Source of the DNA: Alloyangia pacifica
Lineage (GTDB): Bacteria; Pseudomonadota; Alphaproteobacteria; Rhodobacterales; Rhodobacteraceae
NCBI RefSeq assembly: GCF_003111685.1
Contig: NZ_CP022190.1
Coordinates: 372,001-436,000, forward strand
Direction: 5' to 3'
Length of the DNA stretch: 64,000 nt
Shown here: positions 14,153-32,703 of the stretch, in pieces
Numbering within the stretch: the stretch's first letter is position 1
Layout of the letters: the number at the start of each line of letters is the position of its first letter
Program-made: the position numbers and the translations under genes
Notes under the pieces: model-generated
What the model was told of the DNA's origin: nothing
The model's input: the letters and a program-made list of their open reading frames with translations, nothing else
Database searches by the model: none

Positions 14153-15532
14153 ATGAAGCTCTCGTTTCATGGTGCCGCGCGGCAGGTGACCGGATCGTGC
14201 CACCTCGTCGAGGCGGCGGGACGCAAGATCCTGATCGATTGCGGGATGTTTCAGGGCGCGCACGAGTTGCACGACGAGAACGCGTCCGGCTTCGGCTTCG
14301 ACCCGGCAGAGATCGACCTGCTGCTTCTGACCCATGCCCATCTCGATCACTGCGGCCGCATTCCTCTGCTGGTGAAGCGCGGCTTCTCCGGCCCGATCGT
14401 GGCAACCGCCGCGTCCCGTGACCTGGGGCAACTCGTGATGATGGATTCCGCCCATCTTCACGAGGAGGACGCGCGGAGGCACCGGCGCAAGGGCAGGCAG
14501 GGGTGGCGGTACGAGCCGCTCTACGACCGGCTCGATGCGCTCGATGCCGTGCGGCGCTTCGGGCGCCCTGCACACTACGGCAAGGCCACCCAGCTTTTCC
14601 CCGGGATCACCGCCACCTTCTTCGACGCGGGGCATCTCCTCGGCTCGGCCTCAATCCTGCTGGAGATCACCGAAGGCACGCGGCGGCGCAGGGTGCTCTT
14701 CTCGGGCGACATCGGGCCGGGCGGGCGCGTGCTGCTGAACGATCCGGCGCCGCCTGCCGGTGTTGATGTGGTGGTGATGGAGACGACCTATGGCGACCGG
14801 GACCACCGCTCGCTCGCCGACTCGGTCGAGGAACTCCACGCAGCGATCCGAGCCACGCAAGCGCGCGGGGGCAACATCATCATCCCGACCTTTGCACTGG
14901 AGCGGGCGCAGGAACTGCTGTGGTACCTGCGCGAGGGGCTGGACGCGGGGCACATCCAGCCCGGCCTGAGGCTCTATCTCGACTCCCCCATGGCAATCTC
15001 GGCAACGCGGATCTTCGGTCGGCATCCCGAGGCGATGGGCCCGGAGCCTGCACGGATGATCCACGCCGGCAAGGATCCTTTCCAGGTGCCCGGGTTGCAG
15101 TTCACCCAGGAGGCCCAGGATTCGATGGAGCTGAACGGCATCCGCTCCGGCGCGCTGATCATGGCGGGCTCGGGCATGTGCACCGGCGGGCGGGTCCGCC
15201 ATCACCTGCGCCACACGCTCGCCCATCCCGAGTCCAGCATCATCTTCGTCGGGTTCGCCGCCGAAGGCACGCTGGCGCGGATCATCATAGATGGGGCGTC
15301 GCGGGTGAAGCTCTTCGGCGACGAAATCCCAGTGCGGGCGCAGGTCCATACGATCAACGGTTTCTCGGCTCATGCCGGGAGGAGCGCTCTGAGCGCCTGG
15401 CACGCAGGTCTCGGCAACCCGGAACAGACGTTCCTGGTGCATGGGGAGCCAAAGGCGATGGAGGCCTTCGGCAGGGAGCTGACAGGCGGCTCGGTCCGGA
15501 TGCCCGCCATGGGAGAGGAATTCGAGCTTTGA
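14153..15532 (+). CDS. Beta-CASP MBL-fold ribonuclease-like protein
   Basis: This 459-residue protein is a metallo-beta-lactamase domain (THAHLDH, H61/H63/D65/H66; later DAGHLLGSA and SGDIG) with an inserted beta-CASP domain (GGNIIIPTFALERAQELLWYL; SGMCTGGRVRHH) and a C-terminal INGFSAHAG RNA-metabolism motif. Relatives process RNA (CPSF73-like, RNase J-like). In proteobacteria this subtype often sits in anaerobic or stress gene groups with PEP synthase, as here: ppsA follows by 51 bases. The ATG has GGAGG seven bases upstream. Confidence 0.88.
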   Translation: MKLSFHGAARQVTGSCHLVEAAGRKILIDCGMFQGAHELHDENASGFGFDPAEIDLLLLTHAHLDHCGRIPLLVKRGFSGPIVATAASRDLGQLVMMDSAHLHEEDARRHRRKGRQGWRYEPLYDRLDALDAVRRFGRPAHYGKATQLFPGITATFFDAGHLLGSASILLEITEGTRRRRVLFSGDIGPGGRVLLNDPAPPAGVDVVVMETTYGDRDHRSLADSVEELHAAIRATQARGGNIIIPTFALERAQELLWYLREGLDAGHIQPGLRLYLDSPMAISATRIFGRHPEAMGPEPARMIHAGKDPFQVPGLQFTQEAQDSMELNGIRSGALIMAGSGMCTGGRVRHHLRHTLAHPESSIIFVGFAAEGTLARIIIDGASRVKLFGDEIPVRAQVHTINGFSAHAGRSALSAWHAGLGNPEQTFLVHGEPKAMEAFGRELTGGSVRMPAMGEEFEL

Positions 15533-15583
15533 GGGGCGGGCGGGGCTGCCGCGCGCTTTGCAGTGTCAACGGAGGACAAGGGG

Positions 15584-17977
15584 ATGGATGATCACGCGCA
15601 TAGCGGTGGACCGCTTCTGACCTGGTTCGAGGACCTCACCCGAGACGACCTGCCCGAGGTCGGCGGCAAGAACGCCTCGCTTGGCGAGATGGTGGCGCGG
15701 CTCGGCAGCCAGGGGATCCGCGTGCCGCCGGGTTTTGCCACGACCGCCGAGGCGTACCGCAGCTACATCGCCGCCAACGGCCTCGAGGCGGTGCTGGCCG
15801 CTGCGCTCGGACAGCTCGCCGACGGGCGGCTCACGCTCCCCGAGGCGGGGCACCGGATCCGCGCGGCGGTGGCGGCCGGGACATGGCCATCTGACATCGA
15901 GCAGGCCATCCGCGCCGCCTATCGTACGCTGGCCGAGCGCGCCGGGATGCCCGAGCCCGCCGTTGCCGTGCGCTCCTCGGCCACCGCCGAGGACCTGCCC
16001 GACGCCAGTTTCGCGGGCCAGCAGGAGACCTTCCTCAATATCCGCGGCGAGGCTGCGCTGCTCTCCGCCTGCCGCCGCTGCTATGCCTCGCTCTTTACCG
16101 ACCGCGCCATCACCTACCGGCAGATCAAGGGGTTCGATCATCTCGCCGTGGCGCTTTCGATCGGCGTGCAGCTGATGGTGCGCTCGGACGAGGGCGGCTC
16201 GGGTGTCATGTTCTCGCTCGACACAGAGAGCGGCTTCGACAAGCTGGTGCTGATCAACGCCGCCTGGGGCCTGGGCGAGACCGTGGTGCAGGGCGCGGTG
16301 AGCCCCGACGAGTATCAAGTCTACAAGCCCTTCCTCGACGACGAGAGCCGCGTGCCGATTTTGCACAAGGCGCTCGGGGCCAAGGAGATCAAGATGATCT
16401 ACGGCGCAGGGCCAGAGACGCCGACCCGGACGGTGCCGACTTCAAAAGCCGAGCGAGAGAGCTTCGTGCTGTCTGAGGCCGAAATCCTCGAGCTGTCGCG
16501 CATGGCGGTGAGGATCGAGCGTCACTACGGCCAGCCTATGGACATGGAATGGGCCCGCGACGGGCAGGGCGGGCCGCTTTACATCGTGCAGGCGCGGCCC
16601 GAGACGGTGCAGTCGCGCAGCGGGGGTCACGCCTTCCGCAGCTATCGGCTCGGCACGACCGGCGAGGCGCTGCTGCGCGGGCTCAGCGTCGGCAGCGCGG
16701 TGGCGACGGGCGAGGTCTGCCTGATCGAGAGCGCCGCCGACATCGGCCGTTTCCGCGACGGTGCCGTGTTGGTCACCTCGACCACCGACCCGGACTGGGT
16801 GCCGATCATGAAGCGCGCCGTCGCGATCGTCACCGACCACGGAGGCCGTACCTCGCATGCGGCGATCATCAGCCGCGAACTGGGGGTTCCGGCCATCGTC
16901 GGCACCGGACAGGCGACGCATCTGCTGCACGACGGTCAAGCGATCACCGTCTCCTGCGCGGGCGGTGACGAGGGGGTGATCTACGCCGGGGAGGCGGAGT
17001 TCGAAGTTGAGGAGACACGGCTCGACGAGGTCCCGCCGACCCGTACCAAGGTGATGCTCAACATGGCCAACCCCGCAGCGGCGACGCGCTGGTGGCGGCT
17101 GCCGGCGGATGGCGTCGGGCTGGCGCGGATGGAGTTCGTCATCTCCAACGAGGTCAAGGTGCATCCGCTGGCGCTGACCCGCTACGATCGCCTGCCCGAG
17201 GGGCCGGACCGCGACGCCATCGACAGGCTCGCCCGCGGCTATGCCGACCGGACCGAGTATTTCGTCGAGACGCTCGCCCGAGGCCTCTCGCGCATCGCCG
17301 CCACCTGGTACCCGAACCCGGCGATCATCCGGATGAGCGATTTCAAGACAAATGAATACGCCGGGCTGCTTGGAGGCGCGGCGTTCGAACCGCGTGAAGA
17401 GAACCCGATGATCGGCTTCCGCGGTGCCTCGCGCTACTACTCCGAGGCCTACCGAGACGGCTTCGCGCTCGAATGTCGCGCAATCCGCCGCCTGCGCGAG
17501 ACCATCGGCTTTCGCAACGCCGTCGTGATGATCCCCTTCTGCCGCACGGTCGGCGAGGCGGACCGGGTGCTCGAGGTGATGGCCGAGAACGGGCTCACGC
17601 GCGGTGAGGATGGGCTCGAGGTCTACGTGATGTGCGAGATCCCCTCGAACGTGATCGAGGCCGAAGCCTTTGCGGAGCGCTTTGACGGCTTCTCCATAGG
17701 CTCCAACGATCTTACCCAGCTCACCCTTGGCGTCGACCGCGACTCCGAGGCGCTGGCCAGCCTCTTTTCCGAGCGCGACCCGGCAGTGCTCTGGATGATC
17801 CAGACGGTGATCGCCAAGGCGCGCAAGGCCGGGCGCAAGATCGGCCTCTGCGGGCAGGCGCCCAGCAATCACCCCGAGTTCGCCAGGCTTCTGGTGCAGG
17901 CGGGAATCGACAGCATCTCGGTGACCCCGGACAGCTTCCTCGCGGTGAAGCGCCACGTGGCCGAGGCCGAAAGATAG
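15584..17977 (+). CDS. ppsA: Phosphoenolpyruvate synthase
   Basis: The enzyme (797 residues) converts pyruvate, ATP and water to PEP, AMP and phosphate. It has an N-terminal ATP-grasp-like domain (VGGKNASLGEM; AVRSSATAEDLPDASFAGQQET), a swivelling phosphohistidine domain with catalytic His425 in TDHGGRTSHAAI, and a C-terminal PEP/pyruvate barrel (GLARMEF, NPMIGFRG, FSIGSNDLTQ, GLCGQAPS). I chose the ATG at 15584 because GGAGG sits eight bases before it; a GTG at 15563 would add seven residues but overlaps that site. It lies between the MBL and hydrogenase genes. Confidence 0.95.
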   Translation: MDDHAHSGGPLLTWFEDLTRDDLPEVGGKNASLGEMVARLGSQGIRVPPGFATTAEAYRSYIAANGLEAVLAAALGQLADGRLTLPEAGHRIRAAVAAGTWPSDIEQAIRAAYRTLAERAGMPEPAVAVRSSATAEDLPDASFAGQQETFLNIRGEAALLSACRRCYASLFTDRAITYRQIKGFDHLAVALSIGVQLMVRSDEGGSGVMFSLDTESGFDKLVLINAAWGLGETVVQGAVSPDEYQVYKPFLDDESRVPILHKALGAKEIKMIYGAGPETPTRTVPTSKAERESFVLSEAEILELSRMAVRIERHYGQPMDMEWARDGQGGPLYIVQARPETVQSRSGGHAFRSYRLGTTGEALLRGLSVGSAVATGEVCLIESAADIGRFRDGAVLVTSTTDPDWVPIMKRAVAIVTDHGGRTSHAAIISRELGVPAIVGTGQATHLLHDGQAITVSCAGGDEGVIYAGEAEFEVEETRLDEVPPTRTKVMLNMANPAAATRWWRLPADGVGLARMEFVISNEVKVHPLALTRYDRLPEGPDRDAIDRLARGYADRTEYFVETLARGLSRIAATWYPNPAIIRMSDFKTNEYAGLLGGAAFEPREENPMIGFRGASRYYSEAYRDGFALECRAIRRLRETIGFRNAVVMIPFCRTVGEADRVLEVMAENGLTRGEDGLEVYVMCEIPSNVIEAEAFAERFDGFSIGSNDLTQLTLGVDRDSEALASLFSERDPAVLWMIQTVIAKARKAGRKIGLCGQAPSNHPEFARLLVQAGIDSISVTPDSFLAVKRHVAEAER

Positions 17978-18036
17978 CCCGGGGCGCCCGCGCGCACCGG
18001 AGACGTCACGGGGCAGTCACGCCGGGAGGGGGCCGC

Positions 18037-20109
18037 ATGACCAAGGTTACGATCAACGGACGGCAGGTGCAGGTCAAGGAGGGTGCCACCCTGCTCGAGG
18101 CGGCGAGGGTTGCGGGCGTCCACATCCCCACGCTCTGTCATCATCCGACCCTGCCGGCCCATGCCACCTGCCGCATATGCCTCGTCGAGGTCGCGGGCGC
18201 GCGTCACCCTCAGCCAGCGTGCCGGACCCCGGCGCAGGAGGGCGACGTTGTCGACACGGACACCGACGCGCTGCAGGCCTTCCGCCGCGCCGATGGGGCC
18301 TGGCTGCTGGCGCGACATCCCGACGACTGCCTGCGCTGCGAGATCGACGGCGCTTGCCAACTCCAGACGCTGGTCAGGGAAAACCAGTGGCAGGACCTCT
18401 GGCCAGAACTGCCCGGGGAAAACGCGGCTCCTGCCGATGATCTCTTCACCGACCACACCTCGCCCAGCATCTGGCGCGACCTGTCGAAATGCATCGAGTG
18501 CGGCCTTTGCGCCGACGTCTGCGGAGAGGCCGTCCAGCAGCAATTTATCATCGGCTTTGCCGGGCGCGGCGGCGACCGCAGGCCGGTCACCGTCTTCGAG
18601 GAGCCGCTGGCCGAGACCCGATGCATTTCCTGCGGTCAATGCACGCTGGTCTGCCCGGTGGGCGCCCTCATCGAGACGCCGCACTGGCACGATGTCCTGC
18701 ATACGCTCGATGCGCGACGTCGGGTTTCGGTGGTGCAGGTCGCCCCGGCGACCCGGATCGCGATCAGCGAGGAATTCGGCTTCGGCCCGGGCACCGTGAG
18801 CACCGGCCGGATGATCAATGCGCTGCGCCAGCTTGGCTTCGACTACGTTTTTGACACCAATTTCGCCGCCGATCTCACGATCATGGAGGAAGGCTCCGAG
18901 CTTTTGGCGCGGCTGCGCGCCGGGGCGGGGCTGCCGCTCTTCACCTCCTGCTGCCCGGGCTGGGTGAACTGGGTCGAGCTCAACCGGCCCGATCTGCTGC
19001 CGCACCTGAGCACGACGAAATCACCGCAGCAGATGCACGGCGCGATCGCCAAGCGCAGCGGCTTCGCGCGGACGCTTGGGCCCGACTTCGCCGAGGGCAG
19101 GGCGGAGCCCTATGTTGTCAGCGTCATGCCCTGCACCGCCAAGAAGGACGAGGCGCGCCGGCCCGGCCTCTCGGGCGACGTGGATCATGTGCTCACGACC
19201 CGAGAGCTGGCGCGGATGATCCGGGCCCGCGGGATCGCCTTCGGAGCGCTATCCGAGGAGGGACGCTTCGACAGCCCGCTCGGAGAGAGCACGGGCGCGG
19301 CGCAGATCTTCGGCGCGTCTGGCGGGGTCATGGAGGCCATGGTCCGCACGGCCTCGCATCTTGCTGGCATGGTAGGGGCGCTGCCGCTCGAATGGGCGGC
19401 GCTGCGCGGCGTCCGGGACGGCACGAAGACCGCGATCATCCCCGGCATCGGCGCGGTGGCCGTGTGCAACGGCATCGCCGCGGCGCAAAGGCTGCTCGAG
19501 GGGGAGGGTTGGCGAGAGGAGTTCGTCGCCATAGAGGTCATGGCCTGCGTCGGCGGGTGTCTTGGCGGCGGCGGCGAGCCGAAGTCCATGGATCCGCAGA
19601 TCCTGCAAAAACGCGCCGCGGCCATCTATGCCGTTGATGCCGAGGCGCCGCGCCGCCGCTCGTATGAGAACGGCGAGGTTCAGGCGCTCTATGCGGCTGA
19701 ATTGGGGGCGCCGAATTCACCCGCTGCGCACCGGTTGCTGCATACCCATTACGCCGGCAGGGGATCGCGCCGCGCGCTGCTGATGCGGTTTCTCGACTGC
19801 GTGGACCGGCGGGACGGCGCCGCCGCGGCGGAGCTGTTCCAGCCGGACGGCCGCTGGGCGACAGCCTCGGTGGCCGGCGACATCGAAGGGGCCGATGCCA
19901 TCGCGGCGTTCATCAACCGCGCGTTGCCGCCAAGGCGCTACGGGGCGGCCTATAAGCGGCACCAGATGGCGTCGGCGGCGCTGACCGAGGATCTCACCGT
20001 GCTGACGCCGGACGGCAGACGCTGCCGGTTTGAACTGGAGCTGGCGCCCGGGACTGGCAAAGGCCCATCGTCGGCGCGGATCGCGCGACTCACGCGTATC
20101 GTGCTATGA
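18037..20109 (+). CDS. [FeFe]-hydrogenase with extra C-terminal NTF2/SnoaL-like domain
   Basis: The 690-residue protein has, in order: a [2Fe-2S] domain (C34, C45, C48, C62), a His-Cys3 cluster (H94, C98, C101, C107), two [4Fe-4S] clusters (C152/155/158/162 and C196/199/202/206), and the H-cluster domain. All three H-cluster signatures are intact: TSCCPGW (303-309), MPCTAKKDE (364-372) and MACVGGCLGGGGEP (502-515). It therefore looks like an active, M3-type (HndD/CpI-like) hydrogenase. Residues ~575-690 add a domain that reads like NTF2/SnoaL (LMRFLDCVDRRD...AAELFQPDGRW...IAAFINRALP), which I do not know from this family. The start follows GGGAGGGGG. The maturases HydE, HydF and HydG are not in the window. 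Confidence 0.85.
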   Translation: MTKVTINGRQVQVKEGATLLEAARVAGVHIPTLCHHPTLPAHATCRICLVEVAGARHPQPACRTPAQEGDVVDTDTDALQAFRRADGAWLLARHPDDCLRCEIDGACQLQTLVRENQWQDLWPELPGENAAPADDLFTDHTSPSIWRDLSKCIECGLCADVCGEAVQQQFIIGFAGRGGDRRPVTVFEEPLAETRCISCGQCTLVCPVGALIETPHWHDVLHTLDARRRVSVVQVAPATRIAISEEFGFGPGTVSTGRMINALRQLGFDYVFDTNFAADLTIMEEGSELLARLRAGAGLPLFTSCCPGWVNWVELNRPDLLPHLSTTKSPQQMHGAIAKRSGFARTLGPDFAEGRAEPYVVSVMPCTAKKDEARRPGLSGDVDHVLTTRELARMIRARGIAFGALSEEGRFDSPLGESTGAAQIFGASGGVMEAMVRTASHLAGMVGALPLEWAALRGVRDGTKTAIIPGIGAVAVCNGIAAAQRLLEGEGWREEFVAIEVMACVGGCLGGGGEPKSMDPQILQKRAAAIYAVDAEAPRRRSYENGEVQALYAAELGAPNSPAAHRLLHTHYAGRGSRRALLMRFLDCVDRRDGAAAAELFQPDGRWATASVAGDIEGADAIAAFINRALPPRRYGAAYKRHQMASAALTEDLTVLTPDGRRCRFELELAPGTGKGPSSARIARLTRIVL

Positions 20110-23909: not shown

Positions 23910-25093
23910 ATGCTTGCGTATCTTCGCAAGATCGCTCCCTCGCAAAGCAATTTCGAATTTCCCAATTTAGCTGGTCGGACGGTGACAAAGTTCCGGTTCC
24001 CAACCGCGTTCACCATCCTGTTCGTCTTGATCGCAATTGTCGCGATGCTCACCTGGGTCATTCCCGCGGGAGAATATGCGCGCGAGATGAACGACAGTCT
24101 CGGCGTCGCGGCTCCCGTCCCGGGGAGCTATCGGCAGGTCGAGCCGAACCCTCAGGGGATCACCGACGTGATCCTTGCTCCGATCGCCGCCATGTACGAC
24201 CCGACCCTGCTGGGTTCCGCGTCGAGCGCAGCCATGGACGTTGCGGTCTTCGTGCTGGTCATCTGCGGGTTCCTGATGGTGGTCAGCAGGACAGGTGCCA
24301 TTGACGCCGGCATCGGCGCCTTGCTGATCAGGCTCGGGGGCAGGGAACATCTGATGATCCTCATCCTGATGACCGCCTTTGCCCTCGGGGGAACGAGTTT
24401 CGGCATGGCAGAGAAGACGCTGGCCCTTTACGCGCTGATCATTCCGGTATTCATCCGGGCGGGCTACGATGCGCTGACCGGAGTGGCGGTGATCATGCTC
24501 GGGGCCGGGATCGGCACGCTGGGCTCGACGTTCAACGCCTTTGCCACAGTCGTCGCCCCGCAGGGGGCAAGCATCGCCTTCAGGCAGGGAATCGTGCCGC
24601 GCGCGCTGATCTTTGTGGTCTGTCTCGCGTCGGGTATCGTCCACGTCATGCGCTATGCCCACAAGGTGAAGGCCGATCCTGCTGCCTCCTTGGTATCCGA
24701 CATGGCGGAGGACAATCGCACCTTCTTCCTCAAGTTGTCCGAGGCGGCCCTTCCGACCCTCACGCCCGTGCGCCGCATCATCCTGGCGCTCTTCGGGCTG
24801 ACTTTCGGGATGATGATAATCGGGGTTGTCGGGCTCGGCTGGTGGATGGCGGAGATGACCGGGCTGTTCCTCGCGATGTCCATCGTCGTCTGGGGCGCGA
24901 ACTCGTGGTGACCGCCTACCAATCTGCGAACGGCTTGGTGAACCTCTTCAACCCGACCTTCGCCGTGGTCATGGGCGGGCTCGCCATCGGCCGTGTCTCC
25001 TTTGATCGCTGGCTGCGCTTCGTGATGCCGCTGGTGATCTGCCGGGGAATCATCCTGCTGCTGCTGCTCAGCCTGGGTGCGATGACGAGCTGA
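23910..25093 (+). pseudogene. YfcC-family carrier, broken by internal deletion and frameshift
   Basis: A TTAGGAG site precedes the ATG at 23910. The first frame reads a normal YfcC start (KFRFPTAFTILF; TWVIPAGEYA) through MSIVVWG and then stops at 24911. Immediately past the junction (about 24890-24897) a second frame gives RELVVTAYQSANGLVNLFNP and VVMGGLAIGR, the family's C-terminal transmembrane end, stopping at 25093. An intact member has roughly 100 more residues between these parts. The deletion is out of frame, so no full carrier is made. Intact relatives transport basic amino acids or C4-dicarboxylates. Confidence 0.8.
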
Positions 25094-25496: not shown

Positions 25497-25526
25497 TTGA
25501 GACGAATTGATTGATAATGCTATATT
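25497..25526 (+). promoter_or_regulatory. Predicted sigma-70 promoter for the ebo operon
   Basis: TTGAGA (25497-25502), an 18-base spacer and TATATT (25521-25526) lie in a locally AT-rich segment, leaving a leader of about 45 bases to the ATG at 25579. Confidence 0.45.
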
Positions 25527-25578
25527 TTTTGCCTCCAGCCCGCGCCGGGGTGCGCTGTGTTCGAGAAAGGTATTCGTA

Positions 25579-27522
25579 ATGTCGGTTTCCATGACGCTGC
25601 GCTGGCTCGTGATTCTCACCATGCTGGCCCTCGTACTCGCGGCAAGTTTCCTGCTCTTCGAAGGACGCATCGAAACGCTGGTCAACGACCTGCTGTCCGG
25701 GACGCAGAGCCTCTCTGGTCTCTGGGTGCTGATCGTGACGGCTCTGGCGCTCGACGTGGTGCTTCCGGTGCCGTCGAGCGTGGTCAACGTCTCGGCGGGT
25801 ACGCTGCTCGGCGTCGCTGTCGGCACCTTTGCCTGCTGGACCGGGATGACGCTGAGCTGCCTGCTCGGCTACTGGATCGGCGCGACCGGCGGCACCCGCG
25901 CGCTCGGCCGGCTGCTCGGAAGGGACTATCTGGCGCGGTCGGCAGAAGTGTCCGAACGCATCGCGCTCGGCTCGGTGCTTCTGATGCGCGCTGTGCCGGT
26001 CCTGGCCGAGACCTCGACCATCGCGGCAGGGGTGGCGGGCCTGCCCCTGCGCAGGTTCCTTGGCGTCGTGGCGCTGGCAAATCTCGGCATCGCCGCCGCC
26101 TATGCCTCACTGGGCGCGCTGGCGCTTGAGGTCGACTCCTTCCTCCTTGCGCTCTGTGCCGCGCTGGCACTGCCGATCGCGGGCTTGGCGGGGCGCGCCC
26201 TCTACGCGCGGATCAAGGCTCCGGCAACGGTGGTGGCGGCCTCGGGGGCACTTACCCGCTCCGAGGCTGGCGTTGACGCGGCCGCGGCCGTGGGCGCGCC
26301 CGTCGCGCAAGACATGTCGCAGGATGGAGCGCCCGCGACGCTGACGGTCAGGCAAGCCTTCTCGGTCAGCTACGAGTACCGCGTGGTCTTCACGCGCGGG
26401 GTCTTTGATCCGGAAAACCCTGCGCTGCGCGACGTGTTTGCCGCCGGGGCGGAGGCGCGCCGGCAGCGCTGCGTGGTCTTCGTCGACCGCGATCTTCTGG
26501 CACTTCGTCCCGCGCTCGTCGAAGCGATTGGCGCCTATGTCCGGGACACCGTCGAGGGCGTCGATCTGGTCGCCCCGCCGATGCCGGTTGCAGGCGGGGA
26601 GGGGATAAAGGCCGGCTTCGAGACGGTCTTCGAGATCTACCGCCTTATCCTTCAGCACAGCATCGACCGGCATTCCTATGTCATCGCGGTCGGCGGCGGC
26701 GCGGTGCTCGACGCGGTGGGCATGGCCACCGCAACGGCGCACCGGGGGCTCCGGCATATACGGGTGCCGACGACGGTGCTGTCGCAAAACGACAGCGGCG
26801 TCGGGGTGAAAAATGCCGTGAACTTCGAGGGTTCGAAGAATTTCGCGGGCAGCTTTGCCCCGCCTTGGGCGGTGCTGAACGACTTCAACCTGCTGGAGAC
26901 GCTGCCCGCCGCGACCCGTCGCTCCGGCATCTCCGAGGCGGTGAAGGTCTCGCTGATCCGCGATCCGGCGTTCTTCCTTTGGCTCGAGGCGAATGCGGAC
27001 CGGCTGAAGCACTTCGCGCCCGAGGCCGAAGAATACATGATCCGCCGCTCGGCGGAGCTGCACATGCGGCAGATCGCCCTTGGGGGCGATCCGTTTGAGC
27101 GCGGCTCTGCCCGACCCCTCGATTTTGGCCATTGGTCGGCGCACAAGCTCGAGGGTCTGACCCACTATGCCGTCAGCCACGGCGATGCCGTGGCCATGGG
27201 GATCGCGCTCGACGCGCGCTACTCGGTGTTGGCCGGGCTTCTGCCGGCGGGGATGGAGGAGCGCGTGCTGGCGCTGCTGCAGGCCCTCGGCCTGCCGATC
27301 TGGCACCCTGATCTCGGTCGACGTGACGCGGGCGGGCGGCTCGAGATCCTCGTCGGGCTCGAGGAGTTCCGCGAGCATCTCGGCGGCGAGCTCACCGTCA
27401 CGTTGCTGTCCGATCTCGGAGTCGGTGTCGAGGTGCACGAGATGCGTCCCGAGCTGGTCGCCGAGGCCCTTGTCTGGCTCGCGGCACGCGGCTCGGCACG
27501 TCAACAGGGACAGGAGGCATGA
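25579..27522 (+). CDS. eboD: VTT (DedA-like) membrane domain fused to EboD sugar-phosphate cyclase
   Basis: The 647-residue fusion has residues ~1-212 as a VTT/SNARE-associated membrane domain with several hydrophobic segments and a conserved-type LDVVLPVPSSVVNVSAG and RAVPVLAETSTIAAG. An Ala-rich linker (~213-255) follows, then a dehydroquinate-synthase-fold cyclase: GGGAVLD (372-378), Lys411, and zinc ligands E453, H518 and H534 (DFGHWSAHKLE; SHGDAVAMG). EboD proteins make a cyclitol-like product from a sugar phosphate. eboE starts inside its stop codon (ATGA overlap at 27519). I chose the ATG at 25579; earlier codons lie in the promoter leader. Confidence 0.85.
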   Translation: MSVSMTLRWLVILTMLALVLAASFLLFEGRIETLVNDLLSGTQSLSGLWVLIVTALALDVVLPVPSSVVNVSAGTLLGVAVGTFACWTGMTLSCLLGYWIGATGGTRALGRLLGRDYLARSAEVSERIALGSVLLMRAVPVLAETSTIAAGVAGLPLRRFLGVVALANLGIAAAYASLGALALEVDSFLLALCAALALPIAGLAGRALYARIKAPATVVAASGALTRSEAGVDAAAAVGAPVAQDMSQDGAPATLTVRQAFSVSYEYRVVFTRGVFDPENPALRDVFAAGAEARRQRCVVFVDRDLLALRPALVEAIGAYVRDTVEGVDLVAPPMPVAGGEGIKAGFETVFEIYRLILQHSIDRHSYVIAVGGGAVLDAVGMATATAHRGLRHIRVPTTVLSQNDSGVGVKNAVNFEGSKNFAGSFAPPWAVLNDFNLLETLPAATRRSGISEAVKVSLIRDPAFFLWLEANADRLKHFAPEAEEYMIRRSAELHMRQIALGGDPFERGSARPLDFGHWSAHKLEGLTHYAVSHGDAVAMGIALDARYSVLAGLLPAGMEERVLALLQALGLPIWHPDLGRRDAGGRLEILVGLEEFREHLGGELTVTLLSDLGVGVEVHEMRPELVAEALVWLAARGSARQQGQEA

Positions 27523-28706
27523 AGCTCGGCAACGGGCTGGGCACCCTGACCTACTGCCTCAACATCCATGCCACCGAAACCTGGGAGGATTGCCACGCCG
27601 CGCTGACCGGCCCGCTTCTGGCGGTGAAGGCGCAGCTCTCTCCCGATGACCGCTTTGCCGTAGGACTGCGGCTGTCGTCGAACGCGCTCGATGAGATTGA
27701 CCGGGAGGACCGCCGAGCGTGGCTCAAGCAGTTCCTGCGCGAGAACGATCTCGTGCCGGCGACGATGAACGGCTTTCCCTATGGACCCTTCCACGGCGTG
27801 CGGGTCAAGGAGCAGGTCTATCAGCCCGACTGGCGCGACCCCGAGCGGCTGCGGTACACCACCCGGCTCACCGATCTCATGGCCGAGCTCGCCGAGCCCG
27901 GAGACTGGGTCAGCCTCAGCACCGTGCCGGGCACCTTCCGCACGCTGGCCGGGGGCGCCGAGGCCGCCATGGCCGAGCTGTATCTGCAGGCGGCGGCGCA
28001 TTGCGTCGCGGTCAAGGCGCGCACTGGCGTCACTGTGGCGCTGGCGATCGAGCCCGAGCCGTTCTGCTTTCTCGAGACGATCGCGGGCAGCGTCGCCTTC
28101 TTCGAGGACTGGCTCTACGGTCCCGCCGCCGTGGCGCGGTTCGCCGATCTCACCGGGTTGGCCCGGGCGGAGGCAGAAGTGGCCCTGCGCGCGCACCTCG
28201 GGCTTTGCTACGACGTCTGCCATGCGGCGGTGGAATACGAGGACCCGGCGCAGAGCCTTGCCCTGCTGCAGGGCGCGGGCATCCCGATCCACAAGCTGCA
28301 GCTCAGTTCGGCGCTGCGCGCGCAGGTGAGCCCCGAGGTGCGCGAAGCGCTCGCCGCCTATTCCGAGCCCACCTACCTGCACCAGGTGCTCGCCCGCCGC
28401 GGCGAGGGTCCGATCCGCGCCTTTTCCGATCTGCCCGAGGCGCTGGCCCGCGGCGCAGAGGCCGATGGCGAGGAATGGCGGGTGCACTTCCACGTGCCGG
28501 TCTTTCTTGGCTCGCTCGGGCTTTTCGACAGCACGCAGGACTTTCTGAAGGAGATCCTCGACCTGCACCGGGCCGAGCCGATCTCACCGCATCTCGAAGT
28601 GGAGACCTACACATGGGACGTATTGCCCCCGGACTTGCGGACCTCGAGCGTGGACGCGGCGATCAGCCGCGAGTTGGGCTGGGTGCTGGACCGGCTCGGG
28701 CAATGA
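27519..28706 (+). CDS. eboE: EboE, sugar-phosphate isomerase-like protein
   Basis: EboE (395 residues) has the xylose-isomerase-like barrel (PF01261): IEPEPFCFLE, GLCYDVCHAAVEYED and KLQLSSALR are the likely metal/substrate strands. It is annotated in families as a metabolite-traffic protein of unknown reaction. It overlaps the cyclase gene upstream and eboC downstream by 4 bases each, which indicates translational coupling. Confidence 0.88.
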   Translation: MKLGNGLGTLTYCLNIHATETWEDCHAALTGPLLAVKAQLSPDDRFAVGLRLSSNALDEIDREDRRAWLKQFLRENDLVPATMNGFPYGPFHGVRVKEQVYQPDWRDPERLRYTTRLTDLMAELAEPGDWVSLSTVPGTFRTLAGGAEAAMAELYLQAAAHCVAVKARTGVTVALAIEPEPFCFLETIAGSVAFFEDWLYGPAAVARFADLTGLARAEAEVALRAHLGLCYDVCHAAVEYEDPAQSLALLQGAGIPIHKLQLSSALRAQVSPEVREALAAYSEPTYLHQVLARRGEGPIRAFSDLPEALARGAEADGEEWRVHFHVPVFLGSLGLFDSTQDFLKEILDLHRAEPISPHLEVETYTWDVLPPDLRTSSVDAAISRELGWVLDRLGQ

Positions 28707-29560
28707 TCGGTACCGCCCTCAAGCTGGGGCGCGTGTCGAACCTGCCGACGGTCTGGACCAATGCCATGGCGGGGGCGCTACTGGCGCTCTCCGCCGCCCC
28801 CGGCGCGGCGCTCGTGCCCATCTTGGTGAGCGCGCTGGCGCTGACACTCTTCTACGTGGGCGGCATGTGGCTCAACGACGCCTTCGACGCCGAGATCGAC
28901 CGCGCGCAAAAGGCGGACCGGCCGATCCCCATGGGTGAGATCTCGCAGCGAGCCGTTTTCCGCGGAGCCTTTGCCATGCTCGGGCTCGGCATCCTGCTGA
29001 CCCTGCCGCTCGGCGGGCCGGCGCTGCTCTCGGCGCTGCTTCTGACACTCAGCATCTTCCTCTACGACTGGCTGCACAAGCGCACCGCGCTGGCGCCGGT
29101 CATCATGGGGGTGACCCGGTTCTTGTGCTACGTGATGGCTGCGCTTGCCGCCACCGGCGCCTTTCCGGGTGTGGCACTCTGGGGGGCGCTGGGGCTGATG
29201 GCCTATGTGGTCGGCCTTACCTACGCCGCCAAGCAGGAGGCCTACGACCGGCTGGACCGCGCCTGGCCCCTGGCGGTGCTCGCCTTCCCGGCTGTGCTGG
29301 TGCTGGTCATGGGCTGGGGCAAGCCGCTGGCGCTGCTGGTCGCGCTGGGATTCCTCGTCTCCACCGGCGGTGCCTTGCGCCTCCTCTTCCGCCGGGCCAA
29401 GGGTGACGTGCCAAAGGCCGTCACCCTGCTGATCGCGTCGACCTCGCTGTACGATGCCGCGCTTATCGCCGGGGTCCACGGCGGCTGGCTCCCGGCGCTG
29501 CTGGCAGTCGCCGGGTTCGGTCTCACCCGCGCGCTGCAGCGCCGGATCGCCGGGACCTAG
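28703..29560 (+). CDS. eboC: EboC, UbiA-family prenyltransferase
   Basis: This 285-residue membrane protein starts MIGTALKLGRVSNLPTVWTN and has about eight hydrophobic segments. The UbiA signature NDAFDAEIDR (~residues 54-63) binds Mg-diphosphate; the second site is YAAKQEAYDRLDRA. It probably attaches a prenyl group to the cluster's product. It overlaps eboE by 4 bases and its stop codon shares CTAG with the stop of eboF coming from the opposite strand. Confidence 0.88.
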   Translation: MIGTALKLGRVSNLPTVWTNAMAGALLALSAAPGAALVPILVSALALTLFYVGGMWLNDAFDAEIDRAQKADRPIPMGEISQRAVFRGAFAMLGLGILLTLPLGGPALLSALLLTLSIFLYDWLHKRTALAPVIMGVTRFLCYVMAALAATGAFPGVALWGALGLMAYVVGLTYAAKQEAYDRLDRAWPLAVLAFPAVLVLVMGWGKPLALLVALGFLVSTGGALRLLFRRAKGDVPKAVTLLIASTSLYDAALIAGVHGGWLPALLAVAGFGLTRALQRRIAGT

Positions 29561-30942
29561 TCGAAGACATGGCTCAGCGTCAGCGCCTTGAAGTCCACGG
29601 CCCGCACCGGCCCCTCGGGCAGCATCCCCGGCTCGGAAGAGATCACCAGCGGCCCGTCGCCGGGATCCTCGGTGATCCGCCCGTGACTGCCCTTCACCAG
29701 ATCGGTGCGCGAAGGCGAGATCAGGTCGAGCATCTGCCGGAAGCCCATCTTGCGCTTGCCCAGCTTCCAGGCGGCCGCCAGCTTGGGAAAGCGAAGGGCC
29801 GGGTCAAGGAACAGCTCGACCGGATCGTAGCCCGGCTTGCGGTGGATATCGACGGTGGGGGCAAAGTCGGGGGCCTTGGCCTCGTCCAGCCAGTAATAAT
29901 AGCTGAACCATCGGTCGGGCCTGCTGATCGCCACCAGCTCTCCGCAGCGCGGATGGTCGAGTCCATTGGCACGCTTGCCTTCCTCGTCCCAGACCGCTTC
30001 AACCCCGTCCAGCCCCTCGATCAGCGCCTTGACCTCGGCCAGCCGCGCGCGGTCGTTGACGTAGACATGCGCCAGCTGGTGGTCGGACATGGCAAAGGCC
30101 GCCGAGGCGCCTGCGTCGAGGATTTCGCGCCCGTGCTCCTCGGGCCGGACGGCGATCAGCCCCGCCTCGCGCAGGGCGCGGTTGATGTGGATGGCGTCCC
30201 TGACCGGGGTGATGCCGTATTCCGAGACCACCAGCACCCGGCGCCCCTCGGCATCGGCGGCGGCGACCAGCTTGCCGACCAGCGCGTCGATGTCGCGCAG
30301 CGACTGCTGCACCTCGGGGTGGCCGAGATCGGGGCCGAACTTCTGCAGGTCGTAGTCGAGATGCGGCAGGTAGGTGAGTGTCAGCGTCGGGCGCCGCGTC
30401 TCCATCACGTGCAGCGTGGCATCAGCGATCCAGGCCGAGGACCTGATGCTCGCTGTCGGCCCCCAGAAGGTGAAGAGCGGAAAGCGCCCGAGCTTGGCGT
30501 CGAGCTCGTCGTGCAGCTCGGGCGGATGCGCGTAGTGGTCGGGGATCTTGCGCCCGTCGGCGGGATACATCGGCCGCGGCGTCGCCGAGTAATCGGCGGT
30601 CGAATACATGTTGTACCACCAGAACATCTTGGCGCAGGTGAAGCCCGGGTCGCGCGCCTTCCCGGCATCCCAGATTTTCTCCCCCTGCAGCAGCGAATTG
30701 GGTTGGCGCCAGAGCAGCACCTCCTTGAGATCGCGGAAGTACCATCCATTGGCCACGGCGCCGTGCCCCGAGGGCGGCAGGCCGGTCGCCAGCGTCGCCT
30801 GCACCGTGCAGGTGACCGCGGGGGTCACCGTCTCGAGCGGGCGCAGGGCGCCGCGGGCGGCGAGGGCGGCGATGTTGGGGGTGAACTGGCCGACAAGCTT
30901 CGGTGTCAGGCCGACGACAAGAATAACAACAGTCGGTGTCAT
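29557..30942 (-). CDS. eboF: EboF, alkaline-phosphatase-fold phosphodiesterase-like protein
   Basis: EboF (461 residues) starts MTPTVVILVVGLTP. It has the type I phosphodiesterase/nucleotide pyrophosphatase layout: TVTPAVTCTVQATLATG (the nucleophile Thr region), GHGAVANGWY, PHLDYDLQKFG and VVSEYGITPV. The usual first metal Asp (VDGL) is replaced in LVVGLTP, and the usual SDHG is SEYG, so metal binding may differ. No signal peptide is apparent. It lies tail to tail with eboC and diverges from eboA across 97 bases. Confidence 0.85.
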   Translation of the reverse strand: MTPTVVILVVGLTPKLVGQFTPNIAALAARGALRPLETVTPAVTCTVQATLATGLPPSGHGAVANGWYFRDLKEVLLWRQPNSLLQGEKIWDAGKARDPGFTCAKMFWWYNMYSTADYSATPRPMYPADGRKIPDHYAHPPELHDELDAKLGRFPLFTFWGPTASIRSSAWIADATLHVMETRRPTLTLTYLPHLDYDLQKFGPDLGHPEVQQSLRDIDALVGKLVAAADAEGRRVLVVSEYGITPVRDAIHINRALREAGLIAVRPEEHGREILDAGASAAFAMSDHQLAHVYVNDRARLAEVKALIEGLDGVEAVWDEEGKRANGLDHPRCGELVAISRPDRWFSYYYWLDEAKAPDFAPTVDIHRKPGYDPVELFLDPALRFPKLAAAWKLGKRKMGFRQMLDLISPSRTDLVKGSHGRITEDPGDGPLVISSEPGMLPEGPVRAVDFKALTLSHVFD

Positions 30943-31039
30943 GAGCTCAAAAAATATCCCGCAACAAAATACTTGCCGACTATGACGCGCGTTCCCTCCG
31001 CCCGTCCAGTGTTTCATTGACCATTTGGGAGAGAGTTCG

Positions 31040-31783
31040 ATGACCAGTCCAAAAGACCTTTTGCAGAAATGGATAGCGGAGCGTGCCGGGGCCGAGAGGC
31101 CCTGGCTCGAGGACCAGCTCGCGACGCTCGCCGCCCCCGGGGCAACAGAGCGCGAGCTGCACCTCTTTCTCGGCTTCGCGCCGCGGCGGCTTGGCAAGGC
31201 CGACCTTGCCCTCAGCCCGGACGAGCTGGCCGAGGCCGATGCCGCGCGCCCTGGCTGGCAGCCCGGCGACTGGAGTCTCGACGGTGCCGCGCGGGTGCTT
31301 GGGCTGCTCAGCTACAGGGGTGACCGCCCGTTCTCCGAGACGTTCAAGGACCTGCGCCGCACCTCGGACGCCGCCGAGATGATCGCGCTCTACCGCGGGC
31401 TGCCGCTCTATCCCGAGCCCGAGAGCCTGCACTTCGAGGTGGGCGAGGGGCTGCGTTCGAACCTCAAGCCGGTCTTCGAGGCCATCGCCCACAACAACCC
31501 CTATCCGCGCGACCATTTCGACGAGCACCGCTGGAACCACATGATCCTCAAGGCACTGTTCATCGGCGCGGCGCTGGGGCCGATCACCGGCCTCAAAGAC
31601 CGCGCCAACCCCGAGCTGGCGCGCATCCTCGTGCAATACGCGCGCGAACGCTGGGCCGCCGGGCGGCCGGTGATGGAGGAGCTCTGGCCGCTGGTCGGCC
31701 CCTTTGCGGAAACCCCGGAAATCCGGGCCCAGCTTGATCGGGCGCGGGCCGAGGGACGTATTATCGAGGAGTTTGTGTCATGA
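31040..31783 (+). CDS. eboA: EboA domain protein
   Basis: The 247-residue helical protein has no known fold or activity. Recognition rests on family patches (RWNHMILKALFIGAALGPI; SETFKDLRRTSDAAEMIALYRGLPLYP) and on position beside eboB. The ATG at 31040 follows GGGAGAGAG. It overlaps eboB by 4 bases (ATGA). Confidence 0.82.
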   Translation: MTSPKDLLQKWIAERAGAERPWLEDQLATLAAPGATERELHLFLGFAPRRLGKADLALSPDELAEADAARPGWQPGDWSLDGAARVLGLLSYRGDRPFSETFKDLRRTSDAAEMIALYRGLPLYPEPESLHFEVGEGLRSNLKPVFEAIAHNNPYPRDHFDEHRWNHMILKALFIGAALGPITGLKDRANPELARILVQYARERWAAGRPVMEELWPLVGPFAETPEIRAQLDRARAEGRIIEEFVS

Positions 31784-32703
31784 TGCTGATTGATCCCCAC
31801 GCGCATATGATCTCGCGCACCACCGACGATTACGAGGCCATGGCCGCCGCCGGCGTCGTGGCCCTGATCGAGCCCGCCTTCTGGCTCGGCCAGCCGCGCA
31901 CCTTCGTGGGCACCTACGTCGATTACCTGTCGACCATCGTCGGCTGGGAGCGCTTCCGCGCCGGGCAGTTCGGCATCCGCCATTACTGCACCATCGGGCT
32001 CAACTCCAAGGAAGCCAACAACGAGGAGCTGGCCGAGGGCGTGATGGAGTGGCTGCCGCGGTTCGCGCTCAAGGAGGGCGTCGTTGCCATCGGCGAGATC
32101 GGCTACGACGAGCAGACCGCGCTCGAGGACAAGTACTTCCGGCTGCAGCTGACGCTGGCGAAAGAAATTGACCTGCCGGTCATGGTGCACACGCCGCACC
32201 GCGACAAGAAACGCGGCACCAGCCTGTCGATGGATGTCTGCGAGGAAATGGGCCTCGATCCGTCGATGGTGGTGATCGACCACAACAACGAGGAGACCGT
32301 CGGCGAGGTGCTCGACCGCGGCTACTGGGCAGGCTTCTCGATCTACCCCTCGACCAAGATGGGCAACGCGCGGATGGTCGAGCTGCTCAAGCAGTACGGC
32401 TCCGAGCGGATCATCGTCGACAGCGCCTGCGACTGGGGCATCTCGGATTGCCTCGGAGTGGCCAAGACGGCGCAGCTTGCGCTGCAGAGCGGCGTGTCCG
32501 AAGAGGTGGTGCGGGCGGTCTGCTACGGCAATGCGCTCGCCGCCTACGGCCAGAGCGGGCAGATGAAGGAGAGCGACTGGCTGTCGCCGCCCGCCATCGA
32601 CCAGCGCACGCTCTACGAGGGCAACTCGATCCTTCGCGGTGGCCGCGAGCCGGTCATCGAGGAGCCGGGAACGCAGCGCCGCAAGGGGCTGACCATCGAG
32701 TAA
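31780..32703 (+). CDS. eboB: EboB, TatD-family metal-dependent hydrolase
   Basis: EboB (307 residues) is a TatD-like amidohydrolase. Metal residues can be seen in IDPHAHM, GEIGYDE, VMVHTPH, VIDHNN and IVDSACDWG. It ends about 60 residues beyond the barrel in a basic tail. It is coupled to eboA by a 4-base overlap and followed by a strong hairpin. Its reaction in the ebo pathway is unknown. Confidence 0.87.
   Translation: MMLIDPHAHMISRTTDDYEAMAAAGVVALIEPAFWLGQPRTFVGTYVDYLSTIVGWERFRAGQFGIRHYCTIGLNSKEANNEELAEGVMEWLPRFALKEGVVAIGEIGYDEQTALEDKYFRLQLTLAKEIDLPVMVHTPHRDKKRGTSLSMDVCEEMGLDPSMVVIDHNNEETVGEVLDRGYWAGFSIYPSTKMGNARMVELLKQYGSERIIVDSACDWGISDCLGVAKTAQLALQSGVSEEVVRAVCYGNALAAYGQSGQMKESDWLSPPAIDQRTLYEGNSILRGGREPVIEEPGTQRRKGLTIE

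Follow-up and report, generated by a model that had tools for sequence, protein, structure and literature searches.

The gene at 18037..20109 (+) of the window, by which we mean the whole 64,000-nucleotide stretch analyzed here, encodes a group-A [FeFe]-hydrogenase-like protein (HydA) fused to a SnoaL-like domain. It raises the question of whether such a protein can be a working hydrogenase in a genome where the maturases HydE, HydF, and HydG are not found. According to PMC6212873, none of the three maturases can be dispensed with if an [FeFe]-hydrogenase is to be active. At stake is either an H-cluster made without HydEFG, which if true would give biology another route to a di-iron site with CO/CN ligands, or a HydA scaffold that has found a second use apart from hydrogen metabolism. 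In PMC4967309, orphan HydAs (the one of Rhodospirillum rubrum is an example) are set aside as probably inactive; here, the orphans form a family that is uniform, selected, and partly culturable. Either the site is built by a route other than the known enzymes, or the protein has a different job, and each outcome is a warning for surveys that count SnoaL-fused HydA genes as H2-evolving hydrogenases.

Gene and Domain Architecture

Translation of the open reading frame gave 690 residues with no internal stop, and a likely ribosome-binding site, GGGAGGGGG, can be read 4 bases 5′ of the ATG (18024..18032, +). The Pfam domains were arranged in the order Fer2_4, NADH-G_4Fe-4S_3, Fer4 modules, Fe_hyd_lg_C (265 bits), Fe_hyd_SSU (63.9 bits; residues 521–573, 19597..19755, +), and SnoaL_4/SnoaL_2, each over its cut-off. 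Among the NCBIfam profiles, the group A [FeFe]-hydrogenase model TIGR02512 scored 422.2 bits against a cut-off of 405.95. The best profile was the NADH-dependent group A6 model NF040763 (634.3 bits, below its cut-off of 765), and the clostridial-type model gave 425 bits, which is below its cut-off of 900.

Ligands were identified for a [2Fe-2S] cluster (C34, C45, C48, and C62; 18136..18222, +), a His-Cys3 [4Fe-4S] cluster (H94, C98, C101, and C107; 18316..18357, +), and two ferredoxin-type [4Fe-4S] clusters (C152/155/158/162 and C196/199/202/206; 18490..18654, +). They are followed by the H-cluster motifs L1 (TSCCPGW, residues 303–309; 18943..18963, +), L2 (MPCTAKKDE, residues 364–372; 19126..19152, +), and L3 (EVMACVGGCLGGGGEP, residues 500–515; 19534..19581, +). 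According to CpI numbering, C305 is presumably the proton relay and C306 an H-site ligand. An alignment of 67 family sequences was prepared, of which 66 are distinct (L012 and L053 are one Mariprofundus genome with identical coordinates). The relay-cluster ligands were all retained wherever the column was covered (64–65 sequences of the 67), namely in 64/64 for the [2Fe-2S] cluster, 64/64 for the His-Cys3 cluster (65/65 for C107), and 65/65 for the ferredoxin-type clusters. The four H-site cysteines (C306, C366, C504, and C508), together with C305, K369, M364, M502, F425, E285, E288, and R292, were present in 67/67, while S325 and Q331 were present in 66/67 and 65/67, respectively. The earlier note, which had described the cluster ligands and the three H-cluster signatures as intact, was correct on this point.

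The closest solved structure was HydA1 of the T. kivui HydABC complex (8a6t, E 8e-144), aligned over residues 2–575. HydA of the HydABC type (NADH-dependent/bifurcating, group A3/A6; 8a6t, 7q4v) shares the N-terminal [2Fe-2S], the His-Cys3, the two [4Fe-4S] clusters, the H domain, and the SSU with the window protein, which differs in scoring below the A6 cut-off, in lacking HydB/HydC neighbors and HydEFG, in its extra NTF2 domain, and in forming a separate deep clade. The monomeric M3 enzyme of the CpI type (C. pasteurianum; 1feh, 4xdc) has in common with it the accessory cluster order, the H domain, the stand-alone gene, and the same pocket residues as placed by CpI numbering, whereas the sub-threshold clostridial score, the NTF2 extension, and the absent maturases distinguish the window protein. 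The HydA relatives of Nar1/NARF type have lost the [2Fe] pocket and kept the cubane; unlike that pattern, the SnoaL-fused family retains the pocket.

C-Terminal NTF2/SnoaL-like Domain

Residues 577–690 (19765..20106, +) matched SnoaL_4 (residues 579–646; 31.3 bits, cut-off 24) and SnoaL_2 (27.3 bits, cut-off 27) in the full-length protein, and the scores rose to 34.9 and 30.2 bits when the last 120 residues were searched in isolation. An AF2 model of these 120 residues (pLDDT 86.2, pTM 0.82) gave Foldseek and VIA matches in the same superfamily. Membership in the NTF2/SnoaL-like superfamily is hence indicated by both the Pfam gathering score and the fold, as had been proposed for the last ~115 residues. 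Within this superfamily, which includes ketosteroid isomerase, SgcJ, SnoaL, and NTF2, ketosteroid isomerase chains matched the last 120 residues with E 0.019 at best (end points 10–60 vs 11–61). The positions placed from these end points as the likely equivalents of Tyr16 and Asp40, which we take to be the catalytic residues of the isomerase, are occupied by F15 and T39 (last-120-residue numbering), which would make ketosteroid isomerase-type chemistry rather unlikely for this domain.

The earlier note had regarded the extension as foreign to known M3-type hydrogenases. This holds for the solved relatives, since the alignments ended at residue 575 or before in all 60 listed (the best 60 of 120 matched), and it does not hold for the sequence relatives. 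The best 120 of 7700 matched relatives were all proteins of 642–727 residues, aligned over 91–100% of the query with 71–98% identity, so the extension is no one-off. A unique fusion was thereby ruled out in favor of a widespread family. In the open PMC literature, searched with queries of which one phrase misses the bracketed spelling, we found no paper naming a SnoaL fusion of an [FeFe]-hydrogenase.

Distribution, Phylogeny, and Selection

Scanning the genome collection yielded 67 loci, 65 of which (L016–L080, some partial) were of the SnoaL-fused type. The other two are L081, a distant HydA, and L082, an additional and shorter match on the Aquabacterium contig that also carries L056. On this contig (Aquabacterium sp. 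CECT 9606, NZ_CAKKNB010000005.1), the two family matches lie ~18 kb apart, and one of them covers residues 1–687 in no more than 1362 bases and may have lost part of its sequence. Carriers represented by strains included Alloyangia, Salipiger, Jannaschia, Thioclava, Lutimaribacter, Hyphomonas, Thiomicrorhabdus, Hydrogenovibrio, Janthinobacterium, Pseudoduganella, Rhodoferax, Aquabacterium, and Pleionea, and those represented by metagenome-assembled genomes (MAGs) included Gallionella, Nitrosomonas, and Mariprofundus; the architecture is constant over the four classes that the carriers span. Alloyangia, Thioclava, Hyphomonas, Thiomicrorhabdus, Janthinobacterium, and Rhodoferax are mainly aerobic genera. 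In even samples, the SnoaL type was found in 3/397 Pseudomonadota (home genome counted) and 2/387 Alphaproteobacteria, one of the two being the home genome, which agrees with the rarity expected for this lineage. The home genome contains one PF02906 gene.

The earlier note had suggested a tree of the H-cluster domain as a check; trees were built from 35 and 43 rows. The SnoaL-fused family was monophyletic with 100/100 support in both, its stem measuring 2.91 or 1.73 changes per column; the trees were midpoint-rooted, their deeper joins were weak, and some rows were long. The alpha-members were mostly separate from the beta/gamma/zeta-members. Comparison of the window gene with 7 orthologues gave dN/dS values of 0.09–0.14 for the H domain, 0.09–0.22 for the N-terminal part, and 0.28–0.41 for the SnoaL domain, which are rough because several dS values were near or above 1. 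Purifying selection acts strongly on the family, and the protein is in use.

Maturases and Sources of CO and CN

Profile searches of the home genome, which measures 5.17 Mb with a completeness of 100 and a contamination of 0.19, gave no match to HydG or HydE even at E 1e-3, and nothing over the cut-off for HydF, for which the weaker matches (≤71 bits) were read as generic GTPases. The earlier note had supposed that the maturases either lie elsewhere or that the cluster is matured differently, and had counted the absence of all three from the complete genome, together with loss of activity, as evidence against its interpretation; none was found in the home genome. The same searches were extended to 51 distinct family genomes, comprising 49 reached through the loci (23 strains and 26 MAGs or uncultured organisms, with L062 and 15 further loci left out) plus G000, G075, and G013 (identical to G428). 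No genome had HydG over the cut-off (0/51; one weaker match of 19.8 bits in G439), nor HydE (0/51; weaker matches in 12/51, best 42.9 bits), nor HydF (0/51; best 106 bits, covering the GTPase part only). The SnoaL-fused family is therefore without HydEFG in every genome tested, and the view of a working hydrogenase is left unsupported.

The searches matched in the positive controls, namely Thermotoga and a genome with a short HydA (G236), where HydG, HydE, and HydF scored 536, 298, and 513 bits in three genes side by side. The HydG model also matches in E. coli, presumably through ThiH. Among 13 alphaproteobacteria with a HydA of non-SnoaL type, HydG was found in 7 (462–931 bits) and HydF in 8; one of these genomes (G478, contamination 6) has HydF with HydG not over the cut-off. 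HydG or HydF was present in 9/15 genomes with other group-A-like HydAs versus 0/51 of the family (Fisher P 1.4e-7, with shared ancestry ignored).

Both HydG and HydF were missing over the cut-off in 5/13 of the non-SnoaL alphaproteobacteria. These are genomes of 1.1–1.5 Mb (L099, L101, L106, L107, and L109 in G589, G508, G470, G775, and G507), whose HydAs are further orphans outside the SnoaL clade. Another genome, G363 (L013 and L015), has two different non-SnoaL group-A-like HydAs with none of HydE/F/G over the cut-off, and the gene of one, in which Ser replaces an H-site Cys, follows a NuoF/FdsB-like gene as judged by eye. These cases indicate that orphan HydAs are not confined to the SnoaL family. 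A Cys-to-Ser change at 306 also occurs in a plasmid-borne group-A6 HydA (L094), so this change alone is no sign of decay.

According to the title of PMC3105041, tyrosine is the source of all five CO/CN ligands. The [NiFe] (Hyp) machinery was considered as another source of CN/CO and was rejected, since HypD (E ≤ 1e-20) occurs in only 8/51 family genomes and is missing from 43/51, including the home genome.

Genomic Context and Regulation

A PEP synthase (pyruvate, water dikinase) gene (15563..17977, +; TIGR01418 1069 bits, cut-off 740) lies 59 bp upstream of the hydrogenase-like gene, and the two are perhaps co-transcribed. It is preceded by an MBL/beta-CASP/RMMBL nuclease-like gene (14153..15532, +; Pfam). 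This nuclease is stand-alone, and its best NCBIfam profile was the type VII CRISPR Cas14 at 381.7 bits, a score so far under the cut-off of 800 that it is probably an ordinary beta-CASP nuclease. A Na/Ala symporter gene follows the window gene, and neither a NuoF-like HydB nor a HydC was found beside it.

Neighbor comparison in the other loci relied on sequence clusters and on inspection by eye. The PEP synthase–MBL neighborhood recurred only in A. mangrovi (L016) among the fetched loci, and in L044, a PEP synthase lies 8.7 kb from hydA. Apart from hydA, no ORF cluster was present in more than 8 fetched loci, so that no recurrent partner, regulator, or maturase candidate was obtained, and a conserved operon or redox partner was rejected in view of these variable neighbors. 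With related loci and mechanically called ORFs, shadow ORFs remain among the neighbor clusters. A short-chain dehydrogenase (acetoacetyl-CoA reductase-like by eye) was near the gene in 8 loci, Hsp20 in 4, and PEP synthase in 4 (with the home locus included twice); these raw counts may hint at energy-stress islands. A GltD-like gene of Thiomicrorhabdus, adjoining a gltB assigned by eye, lies 1.6–5.7 kb from hydA, and two further relatives lie 2.5–5.3 kb away. NuoE/NuoF-like genes were seen downstream by eye in one locus, L078. The SnoaL-fused HydA gene would hence seem to be a stand-alone cassette.

Control by oxygen limitation through FNR/FixK was rejected. The enrichment that was apparent against mononucleotide shuffles vanished when control upstream regions were used; sites scoring at least 9 of 10 were found upstream of 8/62 family genes (the window gene excluded) vs 32/400 controls (P 0.15). 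The best FNR-like site 5′ of the window gene scored 6 of 10.

A sensor-coupled or redox-partnered form, which the earlier note had raised, would be a possible role; no recurrent gene beside hydA supplies a partner, and the 22 families that Pfam listed for the window protein at E values up to 1 include no PAS domain. The sensory [FeFe]-hydrogenase HydS is a PAS fusion with PAS at the C-terminus.

Functional Interpretation

At a probability of about one half, we favor an orphan HydA that has been repurposed as a redox protein or sensor lacking the canonical [2Fe] unit. A group-A HydA would have lost its tie to HydEFG, gained the C-terminal NTF2/SnoaL domain on the long evolutionary stem, and then become fixed and strongly conserved in many proteobacteria, which would be mostly aerobes. 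Both the relay clusters and the [4Fe-4S] of the H-site may be filled by general Fe-S machinery. With its Cys/Lys/Met shell and proton path kept, the H-site pocket would work without the HydEFG-made [2Fe](CO)3(CN)2 unit, either as an open small-ligand site or by holding a simpler iron unit. Electrons and protons would then be passed by a stand-alone redox enzyme or redox sensor, whose NTF2 domain most likely dimerizes the protein and/or binds a gating small molecule, and the protein would be no H2 enzyme in the usual sense.

The uniform absence of HydG, HydE, and HydF, the lack of HypD in most carriers, the dN/dS values, and the monophyly on a long stem support repurposing, as do published culture data. 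Cultures of T. chilensis, T. kuenenii, and T. pelophila did not consume H2 according to the excerpt of PMC4744846, whose test concerned uptake in a single culture setting and is silent on H2 evolution and expression. The same excerpt places their proteins in group A1 following Greening et al. 2015, with no biochemical data, and gives Roseibacterium and Wenzhouxiangella as the nearest annotated BLAST kin (68–70%); it mentions neither a SnoaL domain nor absent maturases. T. chilensis DSM 12352 (L079) carries the SnoaL-fused HydA gene, and the “Group A1 [FeFe]-hydrogenases” of Thiomicrospira/Hydrogenovibrio are very probably this family, with T. kuenenii and T. pelophila assigned through the BLAST kin given in PMC4744846. 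The R. rubrum [FeFe]-hydrogenase without maturases is thought to be inactive or to have another role (excerpt of PMC4967309, in which an NTF2 domain is not mentioned for this and similar orphans). The present family differs from such single cases in being a conserved clade with 51 tested genomes.

What speaks against repurposing is that the pocket looks better preserved than one would expect of a site lacking [2Fe], and that the analysis turned up neither an alternative substrate nor a partner or an inducer. Among 13 non-ligand columns of the [2Fe] pocket and proton path, which exclude the cubane ligands and were picked by CpI numbering, 12 had at most one exception in the 67 related sequences, compared with 156/352 H-domain columns overall (P 0.0004). 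Furthermore, a set of 19 other HydAs (L096, which has G at 508, perhaps from an alignment or assembly fault, and L109 were excluded) showed 77 H-domain columns with at least 90% conservation. In 72/77 of these columns, at least 95% of 63 family members carry the same residue, which in the remaining 5 is still the commonest.

This invariance, together with the ligands and pocket residues listed above and the purifying selection, argues for a true hydrogenase whose H-cluster is built without HydEFG by another pathway to a CO/CN/dithiolate di-iron site, and which may act as an electron valve under oxygen limitation with NTF2 aiding assembly, dimerization, or gating. Since HypD is absent in 43/51 genomes, the protein may also be the sole hydrogenase in most carriers. 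We regard this explanation as possible but doubtful: it has no known CO/CN source and no recurrent neighbor as a maturase candidate, FNR-like boxes are not enriched, and the three species above showed no H2 uptake. Moreover, the five maturase-less non-SnoaL HydAs also retain most or all of the pocket residues, although L109 has TPC in place of MPC and Q331 is changed in all five (H in four, I in one). Retention alone is thus no proof of an H-cluster, and the use of ligand retention as such proof was weakened by this control. It seems rather unlikely that a working [FeFe] H-cluster is built in these aerobic proteobacteria without HydE, HydF, and HydG and mostly without Hyp, with the NTF2 domain serving as scaffold, gate, or dimerizer.

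An ordinary hydrogenase served by maturases too divergent or rearranged for the family models is improbable. The sub-threshold radical-SAM matches to HydE and the single one to HydG would fit it, as would the fact that 26 of the 49 locus genomes are MAGs or uncultured, from which single genes can be missing. However, the same models scored strongly in seven alphaproteobacteria (HydG) and in G236, HydG and HydE were matchless in the home genome, and the HydF matches of the family reached the GTPase part only. That the gene is the decaying remnant of a hydrogenase system since lost is highly improbable as a general explanation, because orphans such as those of G363 do exist but here the H-domain dN/dS is about 0.1, no cluster ligand was lost in the 67 sequences where covered, and one architecture is kept across the four classes.

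Other Genes of the Window

An ebo-type cluster at 25507–32703 contains EboE and an EboA domain above the cut-off, along with a TatD-like gene and one judged UbiA-like by eye. Its 3-dehydroquinate-synthase-like member (25507–27522) carries an N-terminal fusion to a VTT/TVP38 membrane domain. A DcuC-type carrier gene at 23910–24911 matched positions 1–292 of the 461 in the Pfam model, and its 3′ end looks truncated.
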